This document shows positions 2,239-27,152 of a DNA stretch of 64,000 nucleotides, one piece after another (the stretch's first letter is position 1; the number at the start of each line of letters is the position of its first letter). The notes under the pieces were generated by a model. It was given only the letters and a program-made list of their open reading frames with translations. It had not been told where the DNA came from and did no database searches. A program made the translations under genes and the position numbers. The stretch is from positions 92,648 to 156,647 of the forward strand of contig NZ_JAOVZT010000006.1 in NCBI RefSeq assembly GCF_025716945.1, written 5' to 3'. The stretch is from Geodermatophilus sp. YIM 151500 (GTDB lineage Bacteria > Actinomycetota > Actinomycetes > Mycobacteriales > Geodermatophilaceae).

Positions 2239-2343
2239 CTCCCCTGCGCGGGATCCGCAAGCCCACCGACATCCGGACCGTGATGCGGCGGTGTGCGGAG
2301 CTCGGCGGCACGGACCATCGGCGCAGGTGGGATGCTCGGCACC

Positions 2344-3276
2344 GTGAGCGAACCCGTCGTGGAGCGCACGGTCGCGCCCGTCCCGCCGCGCGCCGGAGCC
2401 GTGGGATTCGCGGGCCCCACCGAGCTCGCGGCCGCGCTGGAGTCGACCGGCTACCTCCCCGACGAGGGCCTGGCCACCGCCGCCTACCTGGCGCTGGTCA
2501 TGCACCGGCCGCTGTTCCTGGAGGGCGAGGCCGGCGTCGGCAAGACCGCGCTGGCGCAGGCGCTGGCCGACGTCACCGGCCGGCCGCTGCACCGGCTGCA
2601 GTGCTACGAGGGCCTGGAGGCCAGCCAGGCGCTCTACGACTGGGACTTCGGGCGCCAGCTGCTGCACCTGCGCGCGGCCGAGGCCGCGCACGTCGGCCAG
2701 GACCCGGCCGCGCTGGAGGCCTCCCTCTACGACCGGCGGTTCCTGCTCGCCCGGCCGCTGCTGCGCGCGCTCGAGGACTCGCCCAGCGTGCTGCTCGTCG
2801 ACGAGGTCGACCGGGCCGACGACGAGTTCGAGGCCTTCCTGCTCGAGGTGCTGTCGGACTTCACCATCTCCATCCCCGAGCTCGGCACCATCCGCGCGCA
2901 GACCCCGCCGCTGGTCGTGCTCACGTCCAACCGCACGCGCGAGGTGCACGACGCGCTCAAGCGCCGCTGCCTCTACCACTGGCTGCAGCACCCGGACTTC
3001 GACCGCGAGGTGGCGATCCTGCGCCGCCGGCTGCCCGAGGTCTCCGAGCGGCTCGCGCGCGAGGTGGCCGGGGCGACGGCCAGGCTGCGCACCCTCGACC
3101 TGCTCAAGCCCCCGGGGATCGCCGAGGCGATGGACTGGGCGAGCGCGCTGCACGCCCTCGGCGCCCGCGAGCTGCACCCGGACCTGGCGGCGCGCACGCT
3201 CGGCGCGGTGCTCAAGTACCGCGAGGACACCGACCGCGTGCACGCCCTGACGCGGGAGGCGCTCTTCGGTGCCTGA
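2344..3276 (+). CDS. MoxR-like AAA ATPase, CoxD-type maturation factor
   Basis: This cytoplasmic AAA+ ATPase has Walker A GEAGVGKT, Walker B VLLVDEVDRAD and the sensor segment LTSNRTREVHDALKRRC. It matches the MoxR/CoxD group encoded with CO dehydrogenase-type molybdenum hydroxylases. In Oligotropha, CoxD works with the VWA protein CoxE in building the copper-sulfur-molybdenum site; a similar job here is inferred from family and neighbours. The GTG at 2344 is preferred because AGGTGG lies 13 bases before it. The ATG at 2332 has that same site only one base away, and a GTG at 2293 is also in frame. The gene overlaps the VWA gene by 8 bases, so the two are probably translationally coupled. Confidence 0.88.
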   Translation: MSEPVVERTVAPVPPRAGAVGFAGPTELAAALESTGYLPDEGLATAAYLALVMHRPLFLEGEAGVGKTALAQALADVTGRPLHRLQCYEGLEASQALYDWDFGRQLLHLRAAEAAHVGQDPAALEASLYDRRFLLARPLLRALEDSPSVLLVDEVDRADDEFEAFLLEVLSDFTISIPELGTIRAQTPPLVVLTSNRTREVHDALKRRCLYHWLQHPDFDREVAILRRRLPEVSERLAREVAGATARLRTLDLLKPPGIAEAMDWASALHALGARELHPDLAARTLGAVLKYREDTDRVHALTREALFGA

Positions 3277-4450
3277 CCAGGGCATAGGAAGCTCTGCCCC
3301 CGTCTCGGAGCCCGCCGAGGGGGGCGTAGCTTCCTATGCCCGGGGAGGCGGGCGGGACGTCGTCGACGCGGTCCTCGGCTTCGCGCGCACGCTCCGGCAC
3401 GCCGGCGTGGCCGCCTCGCCGGACCGGGTCGAGGCCATGCTGAGCGCGGTCGCGGCGCTCGACGTCCTCGACCCCGGGCACGTCTACTGGGCCGGCCGCC
3501 TGACGCTGTGCGCCGGGCCGGACGACCTCGACCGGTACGACGCCGCCTTCGCGGCCTGGTTCGGCGGAGAGGTTCCCCGGGCGGTGCGTTCCGCCGGGCA
3601 GCCCCGGCTCCGGACGTCGACCGCCGCGGCCCTCGACGCCGATCCGGGCCAGGGCGAGGAGGGCGAGGCGCCGGAACTGGCGGGGCGCGCCAGCGGCGAC
3701 GAGGTGCTGCGCCACCGCGACGTCGCCGACCTCACCGCGGCCGAGCGGGAGCACCTGCGCCGGCTGTTCGCCCTGCTGGCGCCCGCCGCGCCGATGCGCC
3801 CGGCGCGCCGCCGCCGACCCAGCCCGGTGGGCTCGGTGCACCCGGCCCGGACGGTGCGCCGCGCGCTGCGCGACGGCGGCGAGGTGAGCCGGCTGCTGCA
3901 CCGCCGGTCGCGGCCCCGCCCGCGCCGCGTCGTCCTGCTGGTCGACGTCTCCGGCTCGATGGCGCCCTACGCCGACGCGCTGCTGCGCTTCGCGCACGCC
4001 GCCGTCCGGGCCCACCCGGCGGTGACCGAGGTGTTCACCGTCGGCACCCGGCTGACCCGGGTGACCCGGGAGATGCGGCTGCGCGACCCGGACCGGGCCC
4101 TCGCCGCCAGCGGCGCGGCGATCCCCGACTGGTCCGGCGGCACCCGGCTCGGTGAGGTGCTCAAGGCCTTCCTCGACCGCTGGGGGCAGCGCGGCACCGC
4201 ACGCGGAGCGGTCGTCGTCATCTGCAGCGACGGCTGGGAGCGCGGCGGCGCCGACCTCCTCGGCGAGCAGATGGCGCGGTTGCGGCGGCTGGCGCACGCC
4301 GTCGTCTGGGTCAACCCGCACAAGGGCCGGGCCGGCTACGAGCCGCTGACCAGCGGGATGCAGGCGGCGCTGCCCTCGGTCGACGTGTTCGTCTCCGGGC
4401 ACAGCCTGGCCGCGTTCGAGGAGCTGGCGGGGGTGATCGCCCGTGCGTGA
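3269..4450 (+). CDS. VWA domain protein, CoxE-type
   Basis: The 393-residue product is a CoxE/VWA family protein. The C-terminal half carries a metal-ion-dependent adhesion site, DVSGSMAPYAD, followed by SGGTRLGEVL and VVVICSDGWERGG. The middle is Arg-rich and likely flexible. CoxE proteins act with a CoxD ATPase as a chaperone pair for a molybdenum hydroxylase. The GTG start overlaps the stop of the ATPase gene. The codons for residues about 4-24 fall inside a long perfect hairpin (3280-3341), so the N-terminus looks like an invaded or exapted repeat. The next in-frame start (GTG near 3405) would remove family-conserved sequence. Confidence 0.87.
   Translation: MPDQGIGSSAPVSEPAEGGVASYARGGGRDVVDAVLGFARTLRHAGVAASPDRVEAMLSAVAALDVLDPGHVYWAGRLTLCAGPDDLDRYDAAFAAWFGGEVPRAVRSAGQPRLRTSTAAALDADPGQGEEGEAPELAGRASGDEVLRHRDVADLTAAEREHLRRLFALLAPAAPMRPARRRRPSPVGSVHPARTVRRALRDGGEVSRLLHRRSRPRPRRVVLLVDVSGSMAPYADALLRFAHAAVRAHPAVTEVFTVGTRLTRVTREMRLRDPDRALAASGAAIPDWSGGTRLGEVLKAFLDRWGQRGTARGAVVVICSDGWERGGADLLGEQMARLRRLAHAVVWVNPHKGRAGYEPLTSGMQAALPSVDVFVSGHSLAAFEELAGVIARA
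3280..3341. repeat. Long palindromic element inside the start of the CoxE-type gene
   Basis: Arms 3280-3293 and 3328-3341 form a perfect 14-bp inverted repeat (GGGCATAGGAAGCT and its complement). Further inner pairing joins GCCCCC with GGGGGC and CTCGG with CCGAG. The AT-rich outer arms contrast with the surrounding DNA. The element lies wholly within coding sequence and keeps the reading frame open. Confidence 0.8.
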
Positions 4451-4454
4451 AAGA

Positions 4455-4509
4455 GGACCCCGTCCCTCACAACCCACGCACGCTCGGGGTGAGCCTCCGG
4501 ACGGGGCCA
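4455..4509. repeat. Palindromic repeat family 2, copy 1
   Basis: This is an imperfect hairpin with arms CCCCGTCC (4458-4465) and GGACGGGG (4499-4506) and an inner stem CTCAC (4466-4470)/GTGAG (4489-4493). The core CGCACGCTCGGGG (4477-4489) recurs identically at 27184-27196, and AGGACCCCGT precedes both copies. It lies between the CoxE-type and XdhC genes. Confidence 0.75.
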
Positions 4510-4542
4510 CGGTGCTGCGGCCACGAGGAAAGGTGCAGTCAG

Positions 4543-5664
4543 GTGCGTGATGTGCTGGACGAGCTGGTCGGCTGGTGGCAGGCCGGCGAGACGGTCGGGA
4601 TGGGCACCGTCGTGGGCACCTGGCGCTCGGCGCCGCGCCCGGCGGGGGCCGCGATGCTGGTCGGGCCCGACGGCACCGCGGTGGGCAGCGTCTCCGGCGG
4701 CTGCGTCGAGGGCGCGGTGTACGAGGAGGCCCGGGACGCCGTCGCCAGCGGGCTGCCGGTGCTGCAGCGCTACGGGGTCAGCGACGACGACGCCTTCGCC
4801 GTCGGCCTGACCTGCGGCGGCATCCTCGACGTCTTCGTCGAGCCGGTGTCGCGCGAGTCCTTCCCCGAGCTCGGCGAGGTCGCCGAGTCGGTCGACCAGC
4901 ACGAACCGGTCGCCGTCGTCACCGTGGTCAAGGGCCCCGAGGACCGGCTGGGCCGCCGGCTCGTCCTGTGGCCGGACCGCTGCTCGGGCACGCTGGGCCT
5001 GCAGCGCCTGGACGACGCCGTCGCCGACGACGCCCGGGGCATGCTCGCCGCCGGGCGCACCGGGCTGCTGCACGTCGGTCACGACGGCGAGCGCCGCGGC
5101 GACGACCTCACCCTGTTCGTCAACTCCTTCGCGCCGCCGGCCCGCATGGTGGTGTTCGGCGCGATCGACTTCGCCGCCGCGGTCGCCCGGGTGGGCGCCT
5201 TCCTCGGCTACCGCGTCACCGTGTGCGACGCCCGCCCGGTGTTCGCCACCGAGAAGCGCTTCCCCGACGCGCACGAGGTCGTGGTCGAGTGGCCGCACCG
5301 CTACCTGCAGGCCGAGGCCGACGCGGGGCGCATCGACGAGCGCACGGTGCTGTGCGTGCTCACGCACGACCCGAAGTTCGACGTCCCGCTGCTGGAGGTC
5401 GCGTTGCGGCTGCCGGTCGCCTACGTCGGCGCGATGGGATCGCGGCGCACGCACGAGGAGCGCCTCGCCCGGCTGCGCGAGGCGGGGCTCGCGGACGACG
5501 AGATCGCCCGGCTGTCCTCACCGATCGGGCTGGACCTGGGTGCGCGGACACCGGAGGAGACGGCCGTCTCGATCGCCGCGGAGATCATCGCCGGGCGGTG
5601 GGGCGGCACCGGGGAGCGGCTCACCGGCACCGGTGGCCCGATCCACCGCACCGCCGACCGCTGA
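4543..5664 (+). CDS. XdhC/CoxI family molybdenum-enzyme maturation protein
   Basis: The product has 373 residues. The N-terminal XdhC domain shows TWRSAPRPAGAAMLV and SVSGGCVEGAV. The C-terminal Rossmann-like domain shows VVFGAIDFAAAVARVGAFLG and AYVGAMGSRRTHEER. XdhC proteins bind and sulfurate molybdenum cofactor before it enters xanthine dehydrogenase or CO dehydrogenase-type enzymes. The GTG at 4543 is chosen because GAGGAAAGG (4525-4533) lies 9 bases upstream, which leaves the palindromic repeat outside the gene. The stop codon lies inside the first unit of a 35-bp tandem repeat. The likely client is the CoxSLM enzyme encoded at 23-27 kb. Confidence 0.9.
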   Translation: MRDVLDELVGWWQAGETVGMGTVVGTWRSAPRPAGAAMLVGPDGTAVGSVSGGCVEGAVYEEARDAVASGLPVLQRYGVSDDDAFAVGLTCGGILDVFVEPVSRESFPELGEVAESVDQHEPVAVVTVVKGPEDRLGRRLVLWPDRCSGTLGLQRLDDAVADDARGMLAAGRTGLLHVGHDGERRGDDLTLFVNSFAPPARMVVFGAIDFAAAVARVGAFLGYRVTVCDARPVFATEKRFPDAHEVVVEWPHRYLQAEADAGRIDERTVLCVLTHDPKFDVPLLEVALRLPVAYVGAMGSRRTHEERLARLREAGLADDEIARLSSPIGLDLGARTPEETAVSIAAEIIAGRWGGTGERLTGTGGPIHRTADR

Positions 5665-5738: not shown

Positions 5739-5930
5739 GACCGCGACCTCCGAGCCGCACCGGCCGAGCCGCCGCGCGGCTCGCGGGTGCGCTTCCGCAT
5801 CGCGGAAGTAGCGCCCCAGGTGGCGGGATGGACGGGCAGTGGTCAGAGTGCGTGTCGTGGCACCCGACGGCGTTCCGGAGAAGCCGGGGGTGGCCGCAGC
5901 TCACCGTCGAGCGGAACGGATGATGGCGCC

Positions 5931-7418
5931 ATGACCGCACTGGCCGAGACCCCCGTCTCCTCGCGCACCGCCGACCTGGCCGCCGGACTGCGGGCGGCCG
6001 TCGGTGCCGAACGCGTGCTCACCGACCGCGTCCAGACCCGGACCTACGAGTGCGACGGGCTGGCCAACTTCAAGGTCACCCCGGCGATCGTCGTGCTGGC
6101 CGAGAGCCGCCAGCACGTCGTCGACTGCGTGCGGCTGTGCTCGGAGGCGGGGGTGCCGTTCGTGGCCCGCGGGTCGGGCACCGGGCTGTCCGGCGGTGCG
6201 CTGCCCAGCGCGGACGGCGTCCTGCTGGTGCTCTCCCGGCTGCGCCGGCTCGGCCCCGTCGACGCCGACAACGCGCAGGTCACCGTCGAGCCCGGGGTGA
6301 TCAACCTGTGGGTCACCCGCGACGCAGCGCCCCACGACCTGCTCTACGCGCCCGACCCGTCGTCGCAGCTGGTCTGCTCGATCGGCGGCAACGTCGCCGA
6401 GAACGCCGGCGGCGCGCACTGCCTGAAGTACGGGTTCACGGTCAACCACGTGCTCGGTGCGGAGGTCGTGCTGCCCGACGGCGAGGTCGTGCACCTGGGC
6501 GGCCGCGCACCCGAGCACCCCGGCTACGACCTGCTGGGGGCCTTCATCGGCAGCGAGGGCACGCTCGGCGTGGCCACCGAGCTGACCCTGCGGCTGATCC
6601 GGGTGCCCGAGGAGGTGCAGACCATGCTGGTCGGCTACCACTCGGTGGAGGACGCGGCCGGCACGGTCAGCGACATCATCGCCGCCGGCATCGTGCCCGC
6701 CGCCGTCGAGATGATGGACGCCCTGGCCATCGAGGCCGCCGAGGCCGCGGTGAGCTGCGGGTACCCCGAGGGCGCCACCGCCGTCCTGGTCATCGAGCTC
6801 GACGGGCCGAAGGCCGAGGTGGAGGCCCAGTTCGCCCAGGTCGAGGAGATCGCCGGCACGCGCAACGCCTTCGAGGTGCGGATCGCCGCCGACGCCGACG
6901 AGCGGGCGCTGATGTGGAAGGGCCGCAAGTCCGCCTTCGCGGCCGTCGGCCGGATCAGCCCCAGCTACTACGTGCAGGACGGCGTGATCCCGCGCACCAA
7001 GCTGCCGGAGGTGCTCGCCGAGATGAAGCGCATGGCCGACGCGAAGGGGCTGCGGGTGGCCAACGTCTTCCACGCCGGCGACGGCAACCTGCACCCGCTG
7101 GTGCTGTTCGACGACGCGGTGGAGGGCCAGGCGCACGAGGCCGAGGAGCTGGCCGGCGACATCCTCGAGCAGTGCATCACCTCCGGCGGCTCGATCACCG
7201 GCGAGCACGGCGTCGGCCAGGAGAAGCGGATGAAGATGGCCAAGCAGTTCACGCCGGAGGACCTCGACACCATGCAGCTGGTGCGCTGCGCGTTCGACCC
7301 GGACGGCGTGGCCAACCCGGGCAAGGTGTTCCCCACCCCACGCCTGTGCGGGGAGCGGCCCGGCGTCCGCACGGGCGAGCACCCGGTGCAGGCGGCCGGC
7401 CTGGGCGAGGTCTTCTGA
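5931..7418 (+). CDS. glcD: Glycolate oxidase FAD subunit GlcD
   Basis: The 495-residue product is an FAD-linked oxidase of the VAO/PCMH fold with a GlcD C-terminal domain. Visible features are the FAD-binding ARGSGTGLSGG near residue 80, SIGGNVAENAGG near 150, GSEGTLGV near 205, and the C-terminal NVFHAGDGNLHP and GSITGEHGVGQEK. GlcD binds FAD and oxidises glycolate or D-lactate, passing electrons to GlcE and GlcF. The ATG at 5931 gives the family length. Its stop overlaps the next start in a TGATG arrangement. With glcE, glcF and the lactate permease it forms one operon for 2-hydroxyacid use. Confidence 0.95.
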   Translation: MTALAETPVSSRTADLAAGLRAAVGAERVLTDRVQTRTYECDGLANFKVTPAIVVLAESRQHVVDCVRLCSEAGVPFVARGSGTGLSGGALPSADGVLLVLSRLRRLGPVDADNAQVTVEPGVINLWVTRDAAPHDLLYAPDPSSQLVCSIGGNVAENAGGAHCLKYGFTVNHVLGAEVVLPDGEVVHLGGRAPEHPGYDLLGAFIGSEGTLGVATELTLRLIRVPEEVQTMLVGYHSVEDAAGTVSDIIAAGIVPAAVEMMDALAIEAAEAAVSCGYPEGATAVLVIELDGPKAEVEAQFAQVEEIAGTRNAFEVRIAADADERALMWKGRKSAFAAVGRISPSYYVQDGVIPRTKLPEVLAEMKRMADAKGLRVANVFHAGDGNLHPLVLFDDAVEGQAHEAEELAGDILEQCITSGGSITGEHGVGQEKRMKMAKQFTPEDLDTMQLVRCAFDPDGVANPGKVFPTPRLCGERPGVRTGEHPVQAAGLGEVF

Positions 7419-8605
7419 TGACGGCCGCCACCGCCACCCGCCGTCCCGGGACGCCGGACGACGCGGTCAACGGCGTCGTGCCCGGCGAGGTGGTCCGCCC
7501 GACGTCGGTCGAGGAGGTCGCCGAACTGCTGAAGGCGGCGACGGCCGACCGGCGCACCGTCGTGCCGGCCGGCGGCCGCAGCAAGCTCACCTGGGCCGCG
7601 CCACCCTCGTCGTGCGACCTGCTGCTCGACACCACCGGGCTCGACCGGGTGGTCGAGCACGTGGCCGGTGACCTGACCGTCGTCGCCGAGGCCGGCGTGC
7701 GGCTGGCCGACCTGCAGGCCCGGGTCGGCGACGCCGGCCAGGTGCTGGCCCTCGACCCCCCCGAGGAGGGCGCCACCCTCGGCGGCGTGGTCAGCGCCAA
7801 CGCCTCGGGCCCGCGGCGGCTGCGCTACGGCACGGTGCGTGACCTGCTGATCGGCATCACCGTCGTGCTCGCCGACGGCACGGTGGCGCACGCCGGCGGC
7901 AAGGTGGTCAAGAACGTCGCGGGCTACGACCTCGGCAAGCTCTACACCGGCGCGCACGGCACGCTCGGCGTCGTCGTCTCCACCACCTGGCGGCTGCACC
8001 CGGTGCCCCCGGCCCGACGCGTCGTCGTCCTGGAACTGCCCGATGCCTCCGCCGCCGGGCCCCTCGCCATCGCGCTCAACCGGTCGACGCTCACCCCGTC
8101 GGCGGTCGAGCTCGTGGCCGAGGCCGGCGGTGCCGGCCGGCTCGTCGTCGTGTTCGAGTCGATCGCCGAGTCGGTGTCGGCGCAGGCCAGGCAGGCCGTC
8201 GAGCTGATGGGCGGCGGCGCGGAGCTCGACGAGGTGCCCGCCGACCTCGGGCGGCGCCCGGGCGGACCGGACGACGTCCTGCTCCGCCTGGCCTACGTGC
8301 CCACCGGCCTGACCGACGTGCTGGCGGCGCTGCCCGCGGGCACGCACCTGGCGGCCTCGGCCGGCACCGGGGTGGCCTACGCCGCCGTGCCCGCCGCCGA
8401 CGCGGCCGGCGCGCTGCCCGCGGTCCGCGCGGCGCTCGCGCCGCACGACGGCAGCGCGGTGCTGCTGCACGCGCCGGAGGCGGTTCGGGACCAGCTCGAC
8501 CACTGGGGGCCGGTCGGTGACGCGCTGGACCTCATGCGCCGGGTCAAGGAACGGTTCGACCCCGAGCGGCTCATGTCGCCGGGACGGTTCGTCGGAGGGC
8601 TGTAG
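7418..8605 (+). CDS. glcE: Glycolate oxidase FAD-binding subunit GlcE
   Basis: The 395-residue product is a second FAD-binding PCMH-type protein. It has VPAGGRSKLTWAAPP near residue 50, a Gly-rich LGGVVSANASGPRRLRYG near 125, and KVVKNVAGYDLGKLYTGAHG near 165. These are the marks of GlcE, the non-catalytic flavin partner of GlcD. Its ATG shares a base with the glcD stop, and glcF begins 4 bases after its own stop, so the three are made together. Confidence 0.93.
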   Translation: MTAATATRRPGTPDDAVNGVVPGEVVRPTSVEEVAELLKAATADRRTVVPAGGRSKLTWAAPPSSCDLLLDTTGLDRVVEHVAGDLTVVAEAGVRLADLQARVGDAGQVLALDPPEEGATLGGVVSANASGPRRLRYGTVRDLLIGITVVLADGTVAHAGGKVVKNVAGYDLGKLYTGAHGTLGVVVSTTWRLHPVPPARRVVVLELPDASAAGPLAIALNRSTLTPSAVELVAEAGGAGRLVVVFESIAESVSAQARQAVELMGGGAELDEVPADLGRRPGGPDDVLLRLAYVPTGLTDVLAALPAGTHLAASAGTGVAYAAVPAADAAGALPAVRAALAPHDGSAVLLHAPEAVRDQLDHWGPVGDALDLMRRVKERFDPERLMSPGRFVGGL

Positions 8606-8608
8606 CAG

Positions 8609-10240
8609 ATGACGGAGATCACCCCGGGCAGCCACGGTAGGGGCGACTCGCCACCGGCCGGGTCGCCCGGCGCCTCGGCCAACGTCAACCCGGTCCGGCA
8701 ATCCGCCGCGGACCTGCCCGACGGCGCGTCGACCGGGACCGTGCGGGCGGCCGACGAGGCCCCGGCCGAGGTGGTCGGGGCGCGGCGGGCGCTCGACGTC
8801 GGCCAGGACCTCGACCTCCCCGCGGGCACCGGGGCCGCCACGGTGGGGGCGCGGGACGCGCTCGGCCTGGCCCGGACCGGCCAGGCGGTGCTGCCGGCCT
8901 TCGACGAGCACCACCCGCCGGACGCCGCGCTGATCGGCGACTGCGTGCACTGCGGGTTCTGCCTGCCGACCTGCCCCACGTACGTGCTCTGGGGCGAGGA
9001 GATGGACAGCCCGCGCGGCCGCATCTACCTGATGAAGGAGGGCCTCGAGGGCGAGCCGCTCGACGACTCGATGGCCCGGCACATCGACCAGTGCCTGGGC
9101 TGCATGGCCTGCGTGACCGCCTGCCCCTCCGGCGTCCAGTACGACAAGCTCATCGAGGCCACCAGGGCGCAGGTCGAGCGGCGCCACGAGCGCCCGCGCA
9201 CCGAGAAGCTGTACCGCGACCTGATCTACGCGCTGTTCCCGTACCCCCGCCGGCTCAAGGCGCTGCGCGGGCCGCTGATGGCCTACCAGGCCAGCCGGCT
9301 GGGCAACCTGCTCGCCCGCACCGGCCTGATGTCGAGGCTGCCCGCCCCGCTGCAGGCCATGGAGTCGCTGGCGCCCAAGCTGGGCCGGGCTGAGCGGATC
9401 CCGGAGTTCACCCCGGCCGTGGGCACCCGGCGGCGCACCGTCGGCGTCCTGGCCGGGTGCGTGCAAGGCACGTTCTTCCCCGACGTCAACGCGGCCACCG
9501 TGCGGGTGCTCGCGGCCGAGGGGTGCGACGTCGTCCTGCCGCGGCGTCAGACCTGCTGCGGCGCCCTGCCCGGCCACGGCGGCCGGGAGGAGCAGGCCCT
9601 CGACTTCGCCAAGCGGACGATCGAGACCTTCGAGCGGGCCGACGTCGACACCGTCGTCGTCAACGCGGCCGGCTGCGGCTCGAACATCAAGGAGTACGGC
9701 CACCAGCTGCGCGACGAGCCGGAGTGGGCCGCGCGGGCGGAGGCGCTGGCCGCCAGGGCCCGCGACATCAGCGAGTTCATCGTCGAGATCGGCCCGGTGG
9801 CCGCGCGGCACCCGTTGCCGATGACCGTGGCCTACCAGGACGCCTGCCACCTCGCGCACGCGCAGGGCATCCGGCAGCAGCCGCGCACGCTGCTCCGCGG
9901 CATCCCCGGCGTGCAGATCAAGGAACTGACCGAGGCCGAGCTGTGCTGCGGCAGCGCCGGCACCTACAACATGCTGCAGCCCGAGCCCGCCCGCGAGCTC
10001 GGCGAGCGCAAGGCCAGGGCCGTGCGCGCCACCGGGGCCGAGCTGATGGTGACGGCCAACCCCGGCTGCTGGATGCAGGTGGCCACGACGCTCGCGCGCA
10101 TGGGCGAGCGGATGCCGGTCGCCCACACCGTCCAGGTGCTCGACGCGTCGATCCGCGGGGTGCCCGTGGAGCAGTTGCTGGACGCAGCGCTCAACGGCCC
10201 CGGCACGGCCCTGCCCCGACCCACCGCCGCAACCCGGTGA
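8609..10240 (+). CDS. glcF: Glycolate oxidase iron-sulfur subunit GlcF
   Basis: The 543-residue product carries two 4Fe-4S motifs, Cys112-115-118-122 ([11 protein letters not shown]) and Cys162-165-168-172 ([11 protein letters not shown]). Two C-terminal CCG-type domains follow, with [12 protein letters not shown] and [10 protein letters not shown], the pattern of GlcF and related heterodisulfide reductase-like proteins. It would take electrons from GlcD/GlcE to the respiratory chain. About 100 residues precede the first cluster, which is long for the family (GlcF usually starts close to its first cluster). This N-terminus is Pro/Ala/Gly-rich and low complexity. The ATG at 8609 fits the spacing to glcE. 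Confidence 0.93.
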
Positions 10241-10266
10241 GCGCTCCCGGCTGATCCCCCGCCCAC

Positions 10267-10290
10267 CCGTGCGGGGTCGATCCCGCACGG
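10267..10290. promoter_or_regulatory. Hairpin between glcF and the permease gene
   Basis: CCGTGCGGG (10267-10275) and CCCGCACGG (10282-10290) form a perfect 9-bp stem with a 6-base loop, in the 88-base gap between glcF and the permease. It could lower expression of the permease relative to the oxidase or shape mRNA processing; neither is shown by sequence alone. Confidence 0.45.
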
Positions 10291-10328
10291 CCGCACCCGA
10301 CCTGCCCGGCCGATCGAGAGGCGTCGAC

Positions 10329-12272
10329 GTGGACAACCTCGCTGTGCTCAGCCTGCTCGCCCTGGCGCCCATCCTCACGGTCGGCGTCCTGCTCGCCGGG
10401 CTGAGATGGCCGGCCAAACGGGCCATGCCCGTCGGCTTCGTCGTCGTCGTGCTCGTCGCCTTCTTCGTGTGGGACATGTCGCCCACGGCGATCGCGGCGT
10501 CGGCGGTGCAGGGCCTGCTGGTGGCGCTGACCCTGCTCTACATCGTCTTCGGCGCACTGCTGCTGCTCGAGACGCTGACCAAGAGCGGCGCGATGGCGAC
10601 CATCCGGGCCGGCTTCACCAGCATCAGCCCCGACCGGCGGGTGCAGGCGATCATCGTCGGCTGGCTGTTCGGCAGCTTCATCGAGGGCGCCTCCGGCTTC
10701 GGCACCCCGGCCGCGGTCGTCGCTCCGCTGCTGCTGGCCCTGGGCTTCCCGGCCATGGCCGCCGTCATGGTCGGGTTGATCATCCAGAGCACGCCGGTCA
10801 GCTTCGGGGCGGTGGGCACCCCGATCCTCGTCGGCGTCAACGGCGGCCTGGCCGGCGCCGGCCCGGTCGAGGACCGCATCGCGGAGCTGGGCACCGACCT
10901 GCCCGGCTTCCTCGAGCGCATCGGGCTGCAGGTGGCGCTGCTGCACGCCACGATCGGCACGTTGATCCCGCTGATCCTCGCCTGCATGCTCACCGGCTTC
11001 TTCGGCGAGCGGAAGCGCTTCGCCGACGGTCTCGCCGTCGCCCCCTTCGCGCTGTTCGCGGCGTTCTCGATGACGGTGCCCTACGTGCTGGTCGCCTGGC
11101 TGCTCGGACCGGAGTTCCCGTCGCTGCTGGGCGGCCTCACCGGCCTGGTCATCGTCATGTTCGCGTCCAGCCGCGGCTTCCTCGTGCCGAAGCAGGTCTG
11201 GGACTTCCCGCCGCGGCAGCGCTGGGCGCACCACTGGATGGGCAGCCTGGTCCCCGAGGACGAGGAGCCCGTCGCCGCCCGGAAGATGAGCATCTGGCTG
11301 GCCTGGACGCCGTACGTCGTGGTCGCCGCGCTGCTCGTGCTGACCCGCACGATCGACCCGGTCACCGAGTTCCTCACCACCGGCTGGCGCGTGGTGAACG
11401 TCGAGAACATCCTCGGCGTCGAGGGGATCTCCCAGGCGCTGCAGGTCGTGTACCTGCCGGGCTTCCTGTTCATCGTCACCTGCCTGCTGACCTACGGGTT
11501 GCACCGCATGCGCGGCCCGGAGATCGCGGCGTCGTGGAAGGTGGCCGGCGGCCAGCTGGCCGGGGCCGCGGTGGCGCTGCTGTTCGCCCTGCCGCTGGTG
11601 CGGGTCTTCATCAACTCCGGCGAGACGTACAACGAGTCGGGTCTGACGTCGATGCCGCTGACCCTGGCCGAGGGGGCGGCCTCCATCGCGGGCGACGCGT
11701 GGCCGGCCTTCGCCCCGTGGATCGGCGCGCTGGGCGCCTTCGTCGCCGGTTCGAACACGGTCAGCAACCTGATGTTCTCGCTGTTCCAGTTCTCCACCGC
11801 CGAGCAGATCGGCGTCACGCCGGAGACCGTCGTCGCCACCCAGGCCGTCGGGGGCGCCGCCGGGAACATGATCACGGTGCACAACATCGTGGCCGCCTCG
11901 GCGACGGTCGGACTGGTCGGCCGCGAGGGAGACCTGATCCGCAAGACGATCCTGCCGACCATCTACTACTGCTTGCTGGCCGGGGGGCTCTCGCTGGTCA
12001 CGATCTACGGCTTCGGGGCGAACGTGAGCACGCTCTGGCTCGCCCTGGTGCTGGCGGGGGTCGTCGGCCTCGTGCTGGCCATGCGCCGCGCGCCGGGCAA
12101 GCCCAACGACGAGCTGGAGCCCGCGCCGGCCGCCGCCGGCGGGCGGGGGAGCGCGGCCGGAGCCGGCGGGCGGGGGAGCGGCGGGGGCGGCAGCGGCTCG
12201 CGCGCCGGCCGCGACGGCCGGCCGCACACCGACCTGGGCCCGGACCCGGCCTCGGGGCCCGACGAGCGGTAG
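10329..12272 (+). CDS. L-lactate/glycolate permease, LctP family
   Basis: The 647-residue membrane protein has 12 or more hydrophobic segments and family motifs such as [16 protein letters not shown] near residue 115 and [16 protein letters not shown] near 475. LctP/GlcA permeases bring in lactate or glycolate with protons. Placement after glcDEF makes it the importer for the oxidase substrate. The last 60 residues are a Gly/Ser/Arg-rich tail expected in the cytoplasm. The GTG at 10329 is chosen because GAGAGG lies 7-8 bases upstream. A perfect terminator hairpin follows the gene. Confidence 0.92.
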
Positions 12273-12357: not shown

Positions 12358-12810
12358 TCAGGACCGCTCCGCCGCGGCGGCGATGTCGACCAGGTCCTTC
12401 TCCAGCATCCGGGTCACCGCGCGCCGGCCGAGCGGCCCGGTGACCGCCCCGAGCACCCGATTCAGGGTGGACGTCGGCCTCGCCCCGAAGGTCATCGCCA
12501 GGTCGCTCCCGCCGTCGCCGGCCGGCGTCACCGCGACCGTGGACAGGTACCGGACGCCCGGCCGCACCGCCTCGGTCGTGTACGACCGCTGCGGCTCCAC
12601 CGCGGTGACGGTCATCTCCTCGGTGGCCGAGCGACCCAGCATCGTGCGGGTCTCCCGCCACCGTGTCCCGACGCCGAACCCTCCCGGCGTGAGGACCTCC
12701 ACCGCGTCGATGCCCCGGATCACCTGCGGGGCTGCCGCGAGGTCGGTGGCCACCGCCCACACCCGCTCCACCGGCGCCGCCACGTGCCGGCGGACCTCCA
12801 CGTCCTGCAT
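12358..12810 (-). CDS. SRPBCC family protein (polyketide cyclase/START-like)
   Basis: The 150-residue protein has the SRPBCC pattern: RHVAAPVERVWAVATDL at the N-terminus, GFGVGTRWRETRTMLG in the middle and a long C-terminal helix ending in LVDIAAAAERS. This fold makes a deep hydrophobic ligand pocket; the ligand cannot be read from sequence. The ATG at 12810 is preceded by GAGGGAGCGAG on the reverse strand, a reasonable ribosome site. It stands alone, convergent with the permease and divergent from the XRE gene. Confidence 0.82.
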   Translation of the reverse strand: MQDVEVRRHVAAPVERVWAVATDLAAAPQVIRGIDAVEVLTPGGFGVGTRWRETRTMLGRSATEEMTVTAVEPQRSYTTEAVRPGVRYLSTVAVTPAGDGGSDLAMTFGARPTSTLNRVLGAVTGPLGRRAVTRMLEKDLVDIAAAAERS

Positions 12811-12948
12811 GCTGTCTCGCTCCCTCGTGGTCCTGCCGCCGCCGTGGCGGCATCCGGCCGACACCCTGCCACCGGGGGACGACGATTTCCCGCACCACCG
12901 CCGAGGGACCGCGCCGGCTCGACCCGGCCGGGTAAGCCTCGCCGTCGC

Positions 12949-12977
12949 TGGACGGGATAGCGGAGCAGGTATAGCGT
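12949..12977 (+). promoter_or_regulatory. Promoter of the XRE/ClpP-like operon
   Basis: TGGACG (12949-12954) and TAGCGT (12972-12977) are separated by 17 bases, a good sigma-70-type layout. The start codon is 7 bases after the -10 box with no ribosome site, so the message is likely leaderless. Confidence 0.6.
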
Positions 12978-12984
12978 CTCTGCT

Positions 12985-13251
12985 ATGCCTCCGGTGCGCC
13001 GGTCGTCCTTCCCGGGCCTCGAGGACCTCGCCGGCCGCCGGCGCGAGCTGATCGAGGAGCTGGTCCGCGCCCGCCGCGAGGCGGCGCTCAGCCAGACCGA
13101 GATCGCCGCGCGGATGGGCACCTCGCAGTCGGCCGTCGCCCGGCTGGAGAGCGGCGAGCTCGACGCGCGGCTGTCCACCCTCGAGCGCTACGCGGCCGCC
13201 CTCGGTCGCGTCGTCGACTGGCAGGTCCGACCGTCCCAGGAGTCGCCATGA
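12985..13251 (+). CDS. XRE-family helix-turn-helix regulator
   Basis: The 88-residue protein is mostly a Cro/CI-type helix-turn-helix, visible as LSQTEIAARMGTSQSAVARLESG (residues about 34-57) followed by the helix LSTLERYAAALG. It has no toxin-like partner of the HigB or RelE type. Its stop overlaps the start of the ClpP-like gene (ATGA), so the two products are made together and may act together. The start follows a promoter so closely that the transcript is probably leaderless and may be autoregulated. Confidence 0.85.
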   Translation: MPPVRRSSFPGLEDLAGRRRELIEELVRARREAALSQTEIAARMGTSQSAVARLESGELDARLSTLERYAAALGRVVDWQVRPSQESP

Positions 13252-13973
13252 CCGTCCCGTCCCGCGCCACGCCGTCCGCCACCGCCGTGCCGTCCGCCAC
13301 CGCCGTGCCGTCCGCCACCTTCCCGCCGCTGCCGCCGCACCCGCCCGAGCCACCCCGTCCCCGGCCCCATCCCTGGCAGCCCGAGCCGCGCCCGGCGGCA
13401 CCGGCCTCGGCCTCCGCCAGCGCCTTGCTCGTCGTCGGCGGGCCGGACTGGCTGGCGCAGCAGCTGCTCGACCGCCGGGTGATCGCCCTGGCCGGCCGGC
13501 TGGACGACGAGGTCGCCAACCGGACCGTGGCGGAGCTGGCCCTGCTGGACGCCGCCGGGGACGAGCCGATCGCGCTGCGGCTGTCCGGGGTGGACGCGGA
13601 TCTCGGCCCGGCGCTGACCGTATTGGATGCCCTCGACCTGACCGGCGCGCCGGTGCACGCCACCTGCCTGGGTAGGCTGAGCGGCGCCGCCGTGGTCCTG
13701 CTGGCGGTGGCCGACGTCCGGACGGTCGGGTCGCACGCGGTGCTGCAGCTCTCCGAACCGCGGGCGCCCCGGCCCGGCCTCGGGCGCGAGGTCGAGCCCC
13801 TCGCCGAGGCCTACGCGCGCGACCTGCGCCGGCTGCAGGAGCGGCTGGCCGAGGCGTGCGGACGCCCGGTCGGCGAGGTCGCCGCCGACATGCGCCCCGG
13901 CCGGGTGCTCGATGCTCACGAGGCGGTCGACCACGGCCTGGCCGACACCGTCGGCCCCCCTGCCCGCCGTTGA
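13248..13973 (+). CDS. ClpP/crotonase-fold protein lacking the usual Ser and His
   Basis: The 241-residue protein has a Pro-rich N-terminal 55 residues, with PSATAV repeats, followed by a ClpP-like domain (about 65-240). The region HATCLGRLSGAAVVLLA (about 137-153) aligns with the ClpP nucleophile loop, but the usual Ser position is Gly146, with Ser145 beside it. The usual His position is Ser169 in AVLQLSEP. It is therefore unlikely to be a normal Clp peptidase and may be structural or regulatory. It is translationally coupled to the XRE regulator. The assignment rests on motif alignment by eye. Confidence 0.72.
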   Translation: MTVPSRATPSATAVPSATAVPSATFPPLPPHPPEPPRPRPHPWQPEPRPAAPASASASALLVVGGPDWLAQQLLDRRVIALAGRLDDEVANRTVAELALLDAAGDEPIALRLSGVDADLGPALTVLDALDLTGAPVHATCLGRLSGAAVVLLAVADVRTVGSHAVLQLSEPRAPRPGLGREVEPLAEAYARDLRRLQERLAEACGRPVGEVAADMRPGRVLDAHEAVDHGLADTVGPPARR

Positions 13974-14022
13974 TCGTCGTCGGGCGGTCGCCCGCCGCGC
14001 CGGCGCGGGCCGCCGGGCGACC

Positions 14023-14604
14023 GTGACCGGCCTCGTGGGCGGCCTCCGGTACGACGTCGAGGTGGTCGGCCTGCTCGCCTCGCCCGCGCACCGCTACGCC
14101 GGGCGGCCGGGCGGCGAGGTGCCCGCGCAGGCCGGCGACCGCCGCGACCGGCTGGAGGTCCGCGCCGGCCACGGCATCGTCGGTGACCGGTACGCCGGTC
14201 ACCCGGCGCACCGGGACGCCCAGGTCACGGTGCTGGCCGCCGAGTCGGTCGAGCGGCTGGCGGCCGAGCTCGGCGCCGGCCCGCTCGACCCGCTGCTCAC
14301 CCGTCGCAACGTCGTCCTGCGCGGCGCCGAGGTCGAGGCGCTGCGCGGGCACACCTTCGCGCTCGACGGCGGGACAGGACCCCTCCTGTTGCGCGGTGGG
14401 CGGCCGGCGAACCCGTGCGCCTGGCTGGACGTCGTCCTCGCCGCCGGTGCGCACCGGGGCATGCGCGGCCGCGGTGGCGTGCGCTGCGCGGCGCTGTCGG
14501 ACGGCGCGCTGACCCTCGGCCCCGCCGTCCTGCTCAGCCCCGTGCCGCTGGACGCGACCCGGGCCGGAGAGGCCGTCCGCCCGGCGGTCCGGACCGTGCG
14601 GTGA
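14023..14604 (+). CDS. MOSC domain protein
   Basis: This is a MOSC (molybdenum cofactor sulfurase C-terminal) protein of about 193 residues. It shows AGHGIVGDRYAG, TVLAAESVERLA, TRRNVVLRG and the conserved Cys motif ANPCAWLD. MOSC domains handle molybdenum cofactor or its sulfur, or work in reduction of N-hydroxylated compounds. The start is uncertain: GTG at 14023 is the best candidate, since the sequence before it is Arg-rich and not family-like. Its stop overlaps the FAD monooxygenase start (GTGA). A link with the Cox hydroxylase is possible but inferred. Confidence 0.8.
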   Translation: MTGLVGGLRYDVEVVGLLASPAHRYAGRPGGEVPAQAGDRRDRLEVRAGHGIVGDRYAGHPAHRDAQVTVLAAESVERLAAELGAGPLDPLLTRRNVVLRGAEVEALRGHTFALDGGTGPLLLRGGRPANPCAWLDVVLAAGAHRGMRGRGGVRCAALSDGALTLGPAVLLSPVPLDATRAGEAVRPAVRTVR

Positions 14605-23015: not shown

Positions 23016-23213
23016 ACGTTGAGGTGTCCCGCGGCTGAGGACAGGCCACCGCGATGGACCTCCGCGGCTGCGGGAGGTGACTCGCTGACTCCCGACGGAG
23101 GAGCGGCAGCCGGACCGATCCGTCACGCCCAGCCGTGGACTCCGGGCCGCCGCGTTGCCAGACTGCGCCCAGGCCGGAGTGTGACCGGCGCCACGCAACG
23201 GAGCGGAGGACCA

Positions 23214-23770
<557 letters not shown>

Positions 23771-23774
<4 letters not shown>

Positions 23775-26266
23775 CCGTCACCGAGGACCGGGCTGCGACC
23801 GGCGCCCCGGAGAAGGAGGTCGGCAAGCCGCGCCGCCGCAAGGAGGACGCCCGGCTGATCACCGGCCGCACGCTGTGGACCGACAACCTCGTGCTGCCCG
23901 GGCTGCTGCACATGTCCGTCGTCCGCAGCCCGGTGGCGCACGCCCGCATCACCGGCATCGACGTCAGCGCGGCGCAGCAGGCGCCCGGCGTGCTCGCGGT
24001 GCTGACCGGCCGCGACCTGGCCGACGAGCAGGGGTCGCTGCCCTGCGCGTGGCCGGTGACGCCGGACATGGTCAACCCCGGGGCACCGGCCGTCGCCGTC
24101 GACCAGGTCAACCACGTGGGCGAGGCCGTCGCGGTGGTCGTCGCGCGCAGCCGGGCTGCCGCCGCCGACGCCCTCGAGCTGGTCGACGTCGACTACGAGC
24201 CGCTGCCACCGGTGCTCGACATGGAGGCGGCGCTCGCCGAGGGCGCCGACCTCGTGCACCCGGGCACCGCGTCCAACCGCAGCTACCACTGGGTCTTCGA
24301 CGGCGGGGAGGCCGGCACGGCCGCCGACACCGAGCAGGCCTTCGCCGACGCCGAGGTGGTGGTCAGCCGCCGGTTCGTGCAGCAGCGGCTGATCCCCGCG
24401 TTCATGGAGCCCCGCTCGGTCGTCGTCCAGCCCCAGGGCGACAACTACACGGTCTGGTCGGCCACCCAGGTGCCGCACATCCTGCGGCTGATGCTGTCGA
24501 TGGTGACCGGCATCCCCGAGCACAAGGTGAAGGTGATCGCCCCCGATGTCGGCGGCGGCTTCGGCGGCAAGCTGCAGGTCACCCCCGAGGAGGTGCTCAC
24601 CCTGCTCGCGGCCCGCCGGGTCGGCCGGCCGGTCAAGTGGACCGAGACGCGCAGCGAGTCGCTGATGAGCGCCCACCACGGCCGCGACCAGATCCAGTAC
24701 ATCGACATCGCCGCCGACCGCGAGGGCAACGTCAAGGGCCTGCGCTGCCGGATCCTGGCCGACATGGGCGCCTACCTGCGCCTGATCACACCCGGCGTCC
24801 CGGTCCTGGGTGCCTTCATGTTCATCGGCATCTACAAGTTCCCCGCCTACCGGTTCGAGTGCGACGGCGTCTTCACCACGAAGACGCCGACCGACGCCTA
24901 CCGGGGCGCCGGGCGGCCGGAGGCCACCTTCGCCATCGAGCGGATCATGGACGAGCTCGCCGTCGAGCTGGGCATGGACCCGCTGGAGGTGCGCCGGAAG
25001 AACTGGATCAGGGCCGAGGAGTTCCCGTTCACCACGGCCGCGGGCCTGGAGTACGACAGCGGCGACTACGAGGCGGCCACGCAGAAGGCGCTCGAGCTCA
25101 TCGGCTACGACGAGCTGCGTGCCGAGCAGCGCCGCCGTCGGGAGTCGGGCGACCCGGTGCAGCTGGGCATCGGCTTCTCCACGTTCACCGAGATGTGCGG
25201 GATCGCGCCCTCCCGGGTCCTCGGGTCGCTGTCCTACGGCGCCGGGGGCTGGGAACAGGCGAGCATCCGGATGCTGCCCACCGGCAAGGTCGAGGTGGTC
25301 ACGGGCACCAGCCCGCACGGCCAGGGGCACGAGACGGCCTGGAGCCAGATCGTCGCCGACCAGCTCGGCGTGCCGTTCGAGGACGTCGAGGTGCTGCACG
25401 GCGACACCGCGGTGTCCGCCCGCGGGCTGGACACCTACGGGTCCCGCTCGCTGGTGGTGGGCGGCGTCGCCGTGGTGAAGGCCGCCGAGAAGGTGGTCGC
25501 CAAGGCGCGCCGGGTCGCCGCCCACCTGCTGGAGGCCAGCGAGGACGACCTGGACTTCGCCGGCGGCTCGTTCTCCGTGCGGGGGACGCCGGGCACCTCG
25601 GTGAGCATCCAGGAGGTCTCGCTGGCGTGCTTCACCTCGCACAACTTCCCGGAGGGCATGGAGCCGAGCATCGACGCCGAGGCGACCTTCGACCCGGAGA
25701 ACTTCTCCTTCCCGCACGGCACGCACATCTGCGCGGCCGAGGTCGACACCGAGACCGGCAGGGTGACGATCCGCAAGTACGCCTGCGTGGACGACATCGG
25801 CGAGATCGTCAACCCGCTCATCGTCGAGGGGCAGGTGCACGGCGGCCTCGCCCAGGGCATCGCGCAGGCGCTGTACGAGGAGGCGGTGTACGACGCCGAC
25901 GGCAACCTGACCACCGGCACGTTCGTCGACTACCTGGTGCCGTCGGCGGCCGACCTGCCGCACTTCGACACCGGCAACACCGTCTCGCCGGCGCTGGCCA
26001 ACCCGCTGGGCGCCAAGGGCGTCGGGGAGGCGGGCACGATCGCGTCGACGCCGGCGGTCGTGAACGCCGCGCTGGACGCCGTCCGCCACCTCGGGGTCAC
26101 CGACATCCGGATGCCGCTCACCCCCGAGCGGGTCTGGCGGGCGTTGCAGGGTGGCGGTGACGGCGGCGACCGGGCAACCGCCGGCACCACCGCCTACGGC
26201 GGGGCGCAGACCGAGACCACGGCGGGCGTGTCCACCCCGCAGAGCTCGCTGGGAGGTGACCGGTGA
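23771..26266 (+). CDS. coxL: Molybdenum hydroxylase large subunit, form II CoxL-type
   Basis: The 831-residue catalytic subunit of the xanthine oxidase family has the cofactor-binding segment [11 protein letters not shown] near residue 260 and the late [11 protein letters not shown], which holds the catalytic Glu. The active-site loop is AYRGAGR at residues 376-382. Form I CO dehydrogenases have AYXCSFR with a copper-ligating Cys; AYRGAGR marks form II enzymes, whose substrate is less certain. The S-L-M gene order also fits form II. The C-terminal 50 residues are Gly/Thr-rich. It overlaps coxS by 4 bases. Confidence 0.93.
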
Positions 26267-26294
26267 TCCCCCGAGTCGACGAAGGAGACGAGCG

Positions 26295-27152
26295 ATGATC
26301 CCCGCCCCGTTCGCGTACGCGCGCCCGACCACCGTCGACGAGGCGGTCCAGGCGATCGCCGAGGGCGGCGAGGACGTCAAGGTGATGGCCGGCGGGCAGT
26401 CGCTCATCCCGGTCATGCGGCTGCGGCTGGCCGCGCCCGAGACCGTCGTCGACCTCGGCCGGGTGGCCGAGCTGCGCGGCGTCCGGGACGACGGCGACGC
26501 GATCGTCATCGGCGCGATGACCACGCACGCCCAGGTGCTCGCCGATCCGCTGGTCCGGCAGCACGCGCCGCTCGTCGCCGCGGCGACCGAGACGGTCGCC
26601 GACCGGCAGACCCGCCACCGGGGCACGTTCGGCGGCGCGCTGGCGCACGCCGACCCGGCCGGCGACCTGCCGGCGTGCGCGCTGGCCCTGGACGCCGAGT
26701 TGGTCGTCGCCGGCCTCGGCGGACGACGGACCGTGCCGGCCGCTGAGTTCTTCGTCGACTACCTCACCACCGCCCTGGAGGAAGGGGAGATCCTGGTCGA
26801 GGTGCGCATCCCGAAGCTGCCCGGCGAGTGGGGGATGCACTACGAGAAGTTCCAGCGGGTGGCGCAGGCCTGGTCGATCGTGGCCGTCGCCGCCGCCGTC
26901 CGGCGCGAGGACGGGCACATCGCCGAGGCGCGCATAGGGCTGACCAACATGGGCCCGACGCCGCTGCGCGCCACCGCGACCGAGGCGGCGCTGGCCGGTG
27001 CCGACGCGACGGTGGAGGCCGTCGCGGCGGCCGCCGGGCACGCGGCGGAGGGGACCAGCCCGAGCAGCGACCTCAACGCCCAGGCCGACTACCGGCAGCA
27101 CCTGGCGCAGGTGCTCACCCGTCGGGCGGTCCTCCGCGCGGCCGGGCTGTAG
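26295..27152 (+). CDS. coxM: Molybdenum hydroxylase FAD subunit, CoxM-type
   Basis: The 285-residue protein has the two FAD motifs of the family, AGGQSLIPVM (residues about 32-41) and HRGTFGGALAHADPAGD near 115, plus a C-terminal CO-dehydrogenase flavoprotein domain with HYEKFQRVAQAWSIVAVA. It accepts electrons from CoxS and passes them to the respiratory chain. The ATG at 26295 has GAAGGAG 7 bases upstream. The gap to coxL is 28 bases. Confidence 0.93.
   Translation: MIPAPFAYARPTTVDEAVQAIAEGGEDVKVMAGGQSLIPVMRLRLAAPETVVDLGRVAELRGVRDDGDAIVIGAMTTHAQVLADPLVRQHAPLVAAATETVADRQTRHRGTFGGALAHADPAGDLPACALALDAELVVAGLGGRRTVPAAEFFVDYLTTALEEGEILVEVRIPKLPGEWGMHYEKFQRVAQAWSIVAVAAAVRREDGHIAEARIGLTNMGPTPLRATATEAALAGADATVEAVAAAAGHAAEGTSPSSDLNAQADYRQHLAQVLTRRAVLRAAGL

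Follow-up and report, generated by a model that had tools for sequence, protein, structure and literature searches.

A probably self-regulated gene pair of soil actinobacteria joins an XRE-family regulator to a ClpP homologue devoid of the peptidase site

The stretch of DNA analysed here (the window) comprises 64,000 nucleotides of Geodermatophilus sp. YIM 151500. It carries the gene for a small XRE-family regulator (hereafter XRE), followed on the same strand by the gene for a ClpP-like protein that we call pseudo-ClpP. The features on which the argument depends are these:

2293..5664, + strand: three upstream neighbours encoding an AAA ATPase, a CoxE-type VWA protein and XdhC/CoxI (Pfam assignments)
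12957..12986, + strand: predicted operator of two tandem dyads, ATnnC-N6-GnnAT (12957-12972 and 12971-12986), overlapping the -10 element and the XRE start codon
12972..12977, + strand: TAGCGT (TAnCnT), the -10 element of what is presumably a leaderless promoter, 7 bases before the XRE start codon
12985..13251, + strand: XRE-family regulator, 88 aa (Pfam HTH_3, E 7.7e-11)
13238..13242, + strand: Shine-Dalgarno-like AGGAG for the pseudo-ClpP gene, within the last codons of the XRE gene
13248..13973, + strand: pseudo-ClpP, 241 aa (Pfam CLP_protease, E 4.2e-18), whose N-terminal tail is rich in Pro (about residues 1-65) and is followed by a domain of ClpP fold (about 67-236)
13683..13685, + strand: Gly146 codon, at the nucleophile (Ser97) position; all 36 family members have Gly here, the 20 canonical ClpPs have Ser (18) or Ala (2)
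13752..13754, + strand: Ser169 codon, at the catalytic His122 position; His in 0/36 family members against 20/20 canonical ClpPs
13899..13901, + strand: Gly218 codon, at the catalytic Asp171 position; Asp in 0/36 family members (Gly 34, Gln 1, His 1), Asp in 19 and Asn in 1 of the canonical ClpPs
13912..14604, + strand: downstream neighbour with a MOSC domain (Pfam MOSC, 2.4e-7); the true start is probably near 14000

The XRE stop codon and the pseudo-ClpP start codon share the sequence ATGA, an overlap of four bases, and both reading frames lie where the initial annotation had placed them, coupled as it had described. Among the 23 pairs that could be read, 20 have the second gene starting at -4 from the XRE stop, two at -1 and one at +4. 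With spacing so similar across the pairs, the arrangement is non-random. A Shine-Dalgarno-like sequence precedes the pseudo-ClpP gene in 17 of the 23 and is missing in the other six.

The ClpP-like protein is best understood from the residues it has lost. Catalytic positions are given in E. coli ClpP numbering, in which we take the triad to be Ser97, His122 and Asp171; Tyr62 is the ATPase-docking tyrosine, the glycine pair belongs to the oxyanion hole, and the D/E-R pair is taken as the ring-ring sensor. Thirty-six family members, the window's included, were aligned with a convenience set of 20 ordinary actinobacterial ClpPs; four rows from this genome's own clpP loci (two in the wrong frame, two duplicates) were left out of the counts, and the rows exclude the broken member L026 and the N-terminally cut L084. 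The initial annotation had placed Gly146 at the nucleophile position with Ser145 beside it and Ser169 at the histidine position, all of it correctly. It was right about the loss of serine and histidine and yet understated the extent of the decay, because the aspartate (Gly218) and the oxyanion glycines are gone as well: the two glycines occur together in none of the 36 family rows, against all 20 canonical ones. The Tyr62 column reads Arg in 19 members, His in 11, Gln in three, Leu in two and Asn in one, compared with Tyr in 19 and Phe in one of the canonical sequences, and docking of Clp ATPases in the known way is unlikely. The D/E-R pair is kept in a single member, which makes a double ring doubtful.

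Other residues were considered as replacements and rejected. A triad built around Ser145, the outcome that the initial annotation had set against its own reading, is unlikely, for this residue is serine in just two of the 36 members, and none of them has the catalytic His or Asp. In the DTxRD motif it is the last Asp that is catalytic, and its counterpart is Gly218; Asp214 corresponds to the first. His163 (kept in 27/36) and Asp214 (34/36) lie in columns that canonical ClpPs also keep and that are not the catalytic ones. Counting along the alignment gives the same assignment of the triad columns as does the triad S111, H136 and D185 of precursor ClpP, as listed in the part of a published survey used here (PMC2605481). 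Pseudo-ClpP thus shares with the ClpP peptidases (MEROPS S14) the fold and the Pfam CLP_protease assignment but lacks their triad, oxyanion pair and docking tyrosine, and is, to judge from its sequence, a non-peptidase. As a separate observation, two canonical-type ClpPs from other families of the order, L050 and L059 (and by eye L053 and L055), show Ala in the nucleophile column and EGG instead of PGG; just upstream of L050 lies, by eye, a ClpP with Ser, His and Asp, so that pairs of active and inactive ClpPs occur there too.

Structure prediction, which had been proposed as a check on the pair, returned a ClpP fold for the 241-residue protein. The AlphaFold model, computed from 15 sequences, has a mean pLDDT of 82.5, with 144 residues at 90 or more; ten-residue means exceed 90 over positions 81-240, except for 86 at 171-180, and are low in the first 70 residues. 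The top Foldseek matches are ClpP1 structures, and comparison with ClpP1 4u0h_E (VIA) gives Z 25.8 and rmsd 2.1 over 174 aligned residues. A long helix (182-204) is found at the place of the ClpP handle. Of the 23 readable pairs, all but L041 and L098 have the Pro-rich tail ahead of the ClpP domain (21 pairs).

The model of XRE is weaker (mean pLDDT 76.6). Its nearest relatives among solved sequences are HigA antitoxins (HigA3, 4.2e-9), and among the matches listed its fold resembles small autoregulators, including restriction-modification (R-M) controllers and HipB, these matches being modest and including POU domains. Pfam finds no ligand domain in its 88 residues. In one genus outside Geodermatophilaceae (L039, L040, L042 and L043) the XRE protein itself has a Pro-rich C-terminal tail of about 70-150 residues ending in RRW, as if it were a counterpart to the tail of the second protein.

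The XRE promoter offers a clue to regulation. The position of the -10 element fits a transcript that is presumably leaderless, and the fixed bases of TAnCnT are invariant in all 19 upstream sequences counted. The initial annotation had proposed a shared leaderless promoter; the conserved -10 element, seven bases ahead of the start codon, agrees with this, but a scan of 12800-14200 for sigma-70 consensus promoters and terminators gave no match. Over this element lies the double dyad, whose second half runs into the XRE gene so that its last AT forms part of the ATG. In all 23 readable pairs its two dyads occupy the same places, -28 and -14 relative to the XRE start codon, a count to be read with the fact that the loose pattern was written after viewing 19 of these upstream sequences, the four pairs outside that set being L039, L040, L042 and L043. 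A third dyad lies upstream of the double dyad in L075. Palindromy is imperfect: in 15 family sites, 14-24 of the 30 bases agree with the reverse complement, and 420 control 30-mers average 9.7 such bases and reach 22 at most. The window contains one double dyad, against 0.005 per strand in shuffled windows. A position weight matrix built without the window's site scores that site at 44.1, the next place at 6.9 and the best of five shuffles at 12.3.

XRE very probably binds these dyads at its own promoter, if conservation and position are a guide. Because the dyads overlap both the -10 element and the start codon, repression is favoured over activation, and XRE is most likely a dedicated autorepressor. 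Against autorepression, the helix-turn-helix regulators of clpP operons, ClgR and PopR, are activators, according to the portion of PMC9765437 drawn upon here; as described there, they act on Streptomyces clpP operons, which encode active proteases, and are degraded by ClpP1P2. The likeness to these regulators lies in the tie to ClpP homologues and in the match of the XRE model with C. glutamicum ClgR 3f51 (Z 9.6, rmsd 6.7, 72 aligned). Here, in contrast, the dyads cover the -10 element and the start codon, and the adjoining ClpP is without a catalytic site. A second comparison is with the R-M controller (C) proteins, small autoregulators with a double operator of the kind predicted for XRE; the model matches the controller 3clc, in an entry titled as a tetramer on a 35-bp operator, with Z 9.3 and rmsd 2.2 over 66 aligned residues. 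The adjacent genes named by Pfam, however, are not restriction or modification genes: they encode SRPBCC, pseudo-ClpP and MOSC proteins, then XdhC, oxidases and transport-like proteins.

A wider XRE regulon was considered and rejected. A strict form of the operator pattern, allowing up to three mismatches, matched the pair's own promoter alone in seven of 12 whole genomes and nothing, own promoter included, in the other five, so that diverged targets would be missed; the reversed control pattern matched in one of the 12. With the loose pattern, a scan of 437,589 bases of the own genome, about one tenth of it, found a single double dyad, the one at the pair.

The initial annotation had suggested a survey of the pair in Actinobacteria, and the pair does recur. 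A class-wide search of 296 genomes returned 12 besides the own genome at E 5.2e-43 or better, with ordinary ClpPs following from 1.6e-35. Relatives were found in Geodermatophilus, Blastococcus, Modestobacter and Pseudonocardiaceae. Within Geodermatophilaceae, an intact pseudo-ClpP is present in 16 of the 112 genomes searched (the own one and 15 others at 58-64% identity) and an intact XRE in the same 16, counts in which absences may be false, most likely in broken assemblies, since the searches scored part of the first-look candidates of each genome (25 in the pseudo-ClpP search, 47 in that for XRE; 9 in the class-wide search). Twelve of the 112 genomes yielded no match to ClpP at all. In 15 of the 16 the two genes are adjacent on one contig; in the remaining genome, G085, the end of the contig cuts the second gene short just behind XRE. 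A seventeenth genome, G087, retains the remains of both (L074, 9880-10290, - strand): an XRE gene without its first half and a ClpP-like frame from which a large internal deletion has removed most of the domain. The 20 kb around this decayed pair contain no double dyad.

Association with XRE is not universal in the wider family. An XRE gene lies beside 24 of the 36 members, and the other 12 have none within 0.7-1.5 kb upstream. A profile search of the genomes of these solo members gave just two weak XRE matches, one of them with stop codons. The double dyad is absent from all 12 of their loci; for the solo members L099-L109 the gene starts are not certain.

The pair also has a constant address. 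All 12 family loci with long flanks show the order AAA, CoxE, XdhC, XRE, pseudo-ClpP on one strand; the XRE start is less than 200 bp from XdhC in ten of them, and the distance is 1.5 kb in L071 and 6.3 kb in L063. In G034, G099 and G085 XdhC is likewise upstream on the same contig, and a MOSC match follows the pair in seven of the 12 long-flank loci. The corresponding loci of ten pair-less relatives have no XRE or pseudo-ClpP match after XdhC and no double dyad; MOSC lies within 100 bp of xdhC in six of them, further away in two, and was not found in two. With the XdhC-side site conserved and both genes missing from the pair-less relatives, the pair is an optional unit at a fixed place within Geodermatophilaceae. 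Outside the family the surroundings differ, an example, read by eye, being a position between cysteine desulfurase and mnmA genes. The window has further peculiarities of its own. Between xdhC and XRE (5787-12272) lies a block that encodes an iron-sulfur protein, a FAD-linked oxidase and, as read by eye, a lactate permease; its genes have no match in the other 12 family loci. Divergent from XRE, at 12358-12810 on the - strand, is a gene for an SRPBCC/polyketide-cyclase-like protein, which matches the NCBIfam Rv0910 family toxin model weakly (39.1 bits, cut-off 100).

In a tree of the 36 members and the canonical rows, all the pseudo-ClpPs fall on one side of a 100/100 branch and the canonical sequences lie apart; the tree has a midpoint root and three long branches, and its set of sequences contains no ClpR. 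In eight pairs for each gene, dN/dS ranges over 0.21-0.39 in pseudo-ClpP and 0.11-0.39 in XRE, so both genes are under purifying selection in the pairs tested. The loss of triad, oxyanion pair and docking tyrosine in 36/36, the 100/100 branch and the dN/dS of the pseudo-ClpP gene together indicate a maintained non-peptidase. Its product evolves faster than the neighbours do, to judge from identities to the window's proteins at the 12 family loci: 60-66% for pseudo-ClpP, against 78-89% for XRE and 77-93% for AAA, CoxE and XdhC. Protein distances of XRE and pseudo-ClpP are correlated across the 23 pairs (Mantel r 0.86, 0/2000), and weakly so within the family (r 0.21, 92/2000).

Taken together, the XRE and pseudo-ClpP genes probably constitute one self-regulated gene pair in some soil actinobacteria. 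Homology, predicted fold, catalytic loss, common grouping in the tree, purifying selection, co-occurrence and operator conservation form the basis for regarding the pair as a cassette, which would be self-limiting. XRE dimers sitting on the two tandem dyads would cover the -10 element and the start codon and so hold a leaderless operon at a low level. Pseudo-ClpP would be translated from the start that overlaps the XRE stop, with the help of an internal ribosome site in most pairs, and its dose would be what XRE controls. The protein itself would be a pseudoenzyme, possibly ring-forming, unable to hydrolyse peptides as ClpP does and most likely acting by binding, through either the ring chamber or the Pro-rich tail. 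We infer that XRE would bind the dyads and repress, not activate, the operon, and that pseudo-ClpP would assemble into a ring and act by binding. We put the probability of this reading, XRE autorepression combined with a binding, non-proteolytic role of pseudo-ClpP, at about 0.6. The cassette would thus work like a small controller-type autoregulator placed ahead of a pseudoenzyme. The alternatives considered below (a sensor for XRE, a ClpR-like subunit, a toxin-antitoxin pair, a service to molybdenum hydroxylases) overlap in part with it.

It is conceivable, and we hold it as a tentative possibility, that pseudo-ClpP serves as sensor or co-regulator of XRE, binding the repressor and releasing or strengthening repression when a ligand or an unfolded peptide enters the ring. 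Overlapping genes, an identical distribution in 16 of 112 genomes and joint decay in G087 are all what such a partnership would leave behind, and the 88-residue XRE, in which no ligand domain was found, could use a partner of this kind. But a third of the family (12/36) has no adjacent XRE, nor is there a close XRE elsewhere in those 12 genomes, and co-divergence within the family is weak; nor did a fused XRE-ClpP protein come to notice in passing. The existence of solo members disfavours any role that needs XRE. The suggestion in the initial annotation of a non-peptidase ClpP-fold partner for a repressor therefore survives in one part, the protein being gene-coupled to XRE and devoid of a peptidase site, and stays a tentative possibility in the other, the role as sensor, scaffold or partner. 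One might still imagine a more specific version, in which a ClpP ring relieved of proteolysis and ATPase docking has become a chamber for ligands or peptides that directly tunes XRE, a former protease turned sensor; this strikes us as rather unlikely.

Somewhat doubtful, too, is the notion that pseudo-ClpP behaves as a ClpR-like or dominant-negative subunit that mixes with the housekeeping ClpP1/ClpP2 and changes or blocks proteolysis. ClpR of cyanobacteria, plastids and apicoplasts is a ClpP homologue without the catalytic triad, as the section of PMC7966870 used here describes it, and pseudo-ClpP is likewise a triad-less ClpP homologue, a likeness of sequence and one drawn beside a tree without ClpR. 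The ClpP fold and the helix at the handle place would suit a mixed ring, and the genome (4.77 Mb, 53 contigs) does provide partners, its two other CLP_protease genes being an ordinary clpP1/clpP2 pair. There is, moreover, a precedent in the accessory ClpP(ADEP) of Streptomyces, which acts on ClpP1 and forms mixed dimers and trimers with it, in the passages of PMC12607617 relied on here. Pseudo-ClpP differs from ClpR, however, in being actinobacterial, encoded apart from the clpP genes, deprived of the docking tyrosine (36/36), and endowed with a Pro-rich tail and an XRE regulator of its own. With both ring-ring (D/E-R kept in 1/36) and docking residues lost, ordinary Clp function is disfavoured. 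The clpP1/clpP2 pair, furthermore, is on another contig, and the 630 bases that precede the first clpP contain no dyad.

A type II toxin-antitoxin pair, with XRE as a HigA/HipB-like antitoxin and the ClpP-like protein as a new toxin, is improbable. The resemblance of XRE to HigA and HipB in sequence and fold, HigA antitoxins being its closest solved sequences, is joined by the gene order, the overlapping partner gene, the predicted own operator and presence or absence as a unit. The partner, however, is ClpP-like and has no PADLOC match at E 0.1, the only catalytic site known for the ClpP fold is lost from it, and 12 of the 36 copies have no such XRE adjacent, which a toxin should not allow. 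A defence system was also considered and set aside, given that XRE matches just general HTH models in PADLOC and the ClpP-like protein none. The same applies to a phage or plasmid origin: neither phages (E 1e-4) nor plasmids (E 1e-10) nor viral contigs gave a match, and the ClpP-like protein has just weak matches in PHROGs, the best being 0.0017. As improbable as a toxin is a service to the adjoining molybdenum hydroxylase maturation operon (AAA-CoxE-XdhC), for example as an enzyme-assembly scaffold, for although the upstream block is kept in 12/12 loci and the window encodes at 23135-27152 the large and flavoprotein subunits of a molybdo-hydroxylase of the CO/xanthine dehydrogenase type, XdhC has a match in 106 of the 112 family genomes and the pair is in 16, relatives outside the family live in other surroundings, and the pair seems to own its promoter.

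Inactive ClpP homologues as such are not new. A 2008 survey counted 21 of them among 121 Clp protease-like proteins of family S14 (PMC2605481), and the part of it used here describes neither this clade nor an XRE partner. The XRE/pseudo-ClpP pair is likewise not named in literature titles or the starts of abstracts, among the matches listed. The predicted operator could be tested with little effort, and the cassette is a small one. Known dead ClpPs, ClpR among them, belong to the Clp protease. The clade described here has been kept by selection despite the loss of triad, oxyanion glycines and docking tyrosine, often together with a dedicated regulator. That a catalytically dead clade is maintained in this way suggests that the ClpP fold can be useful without proteolysis.
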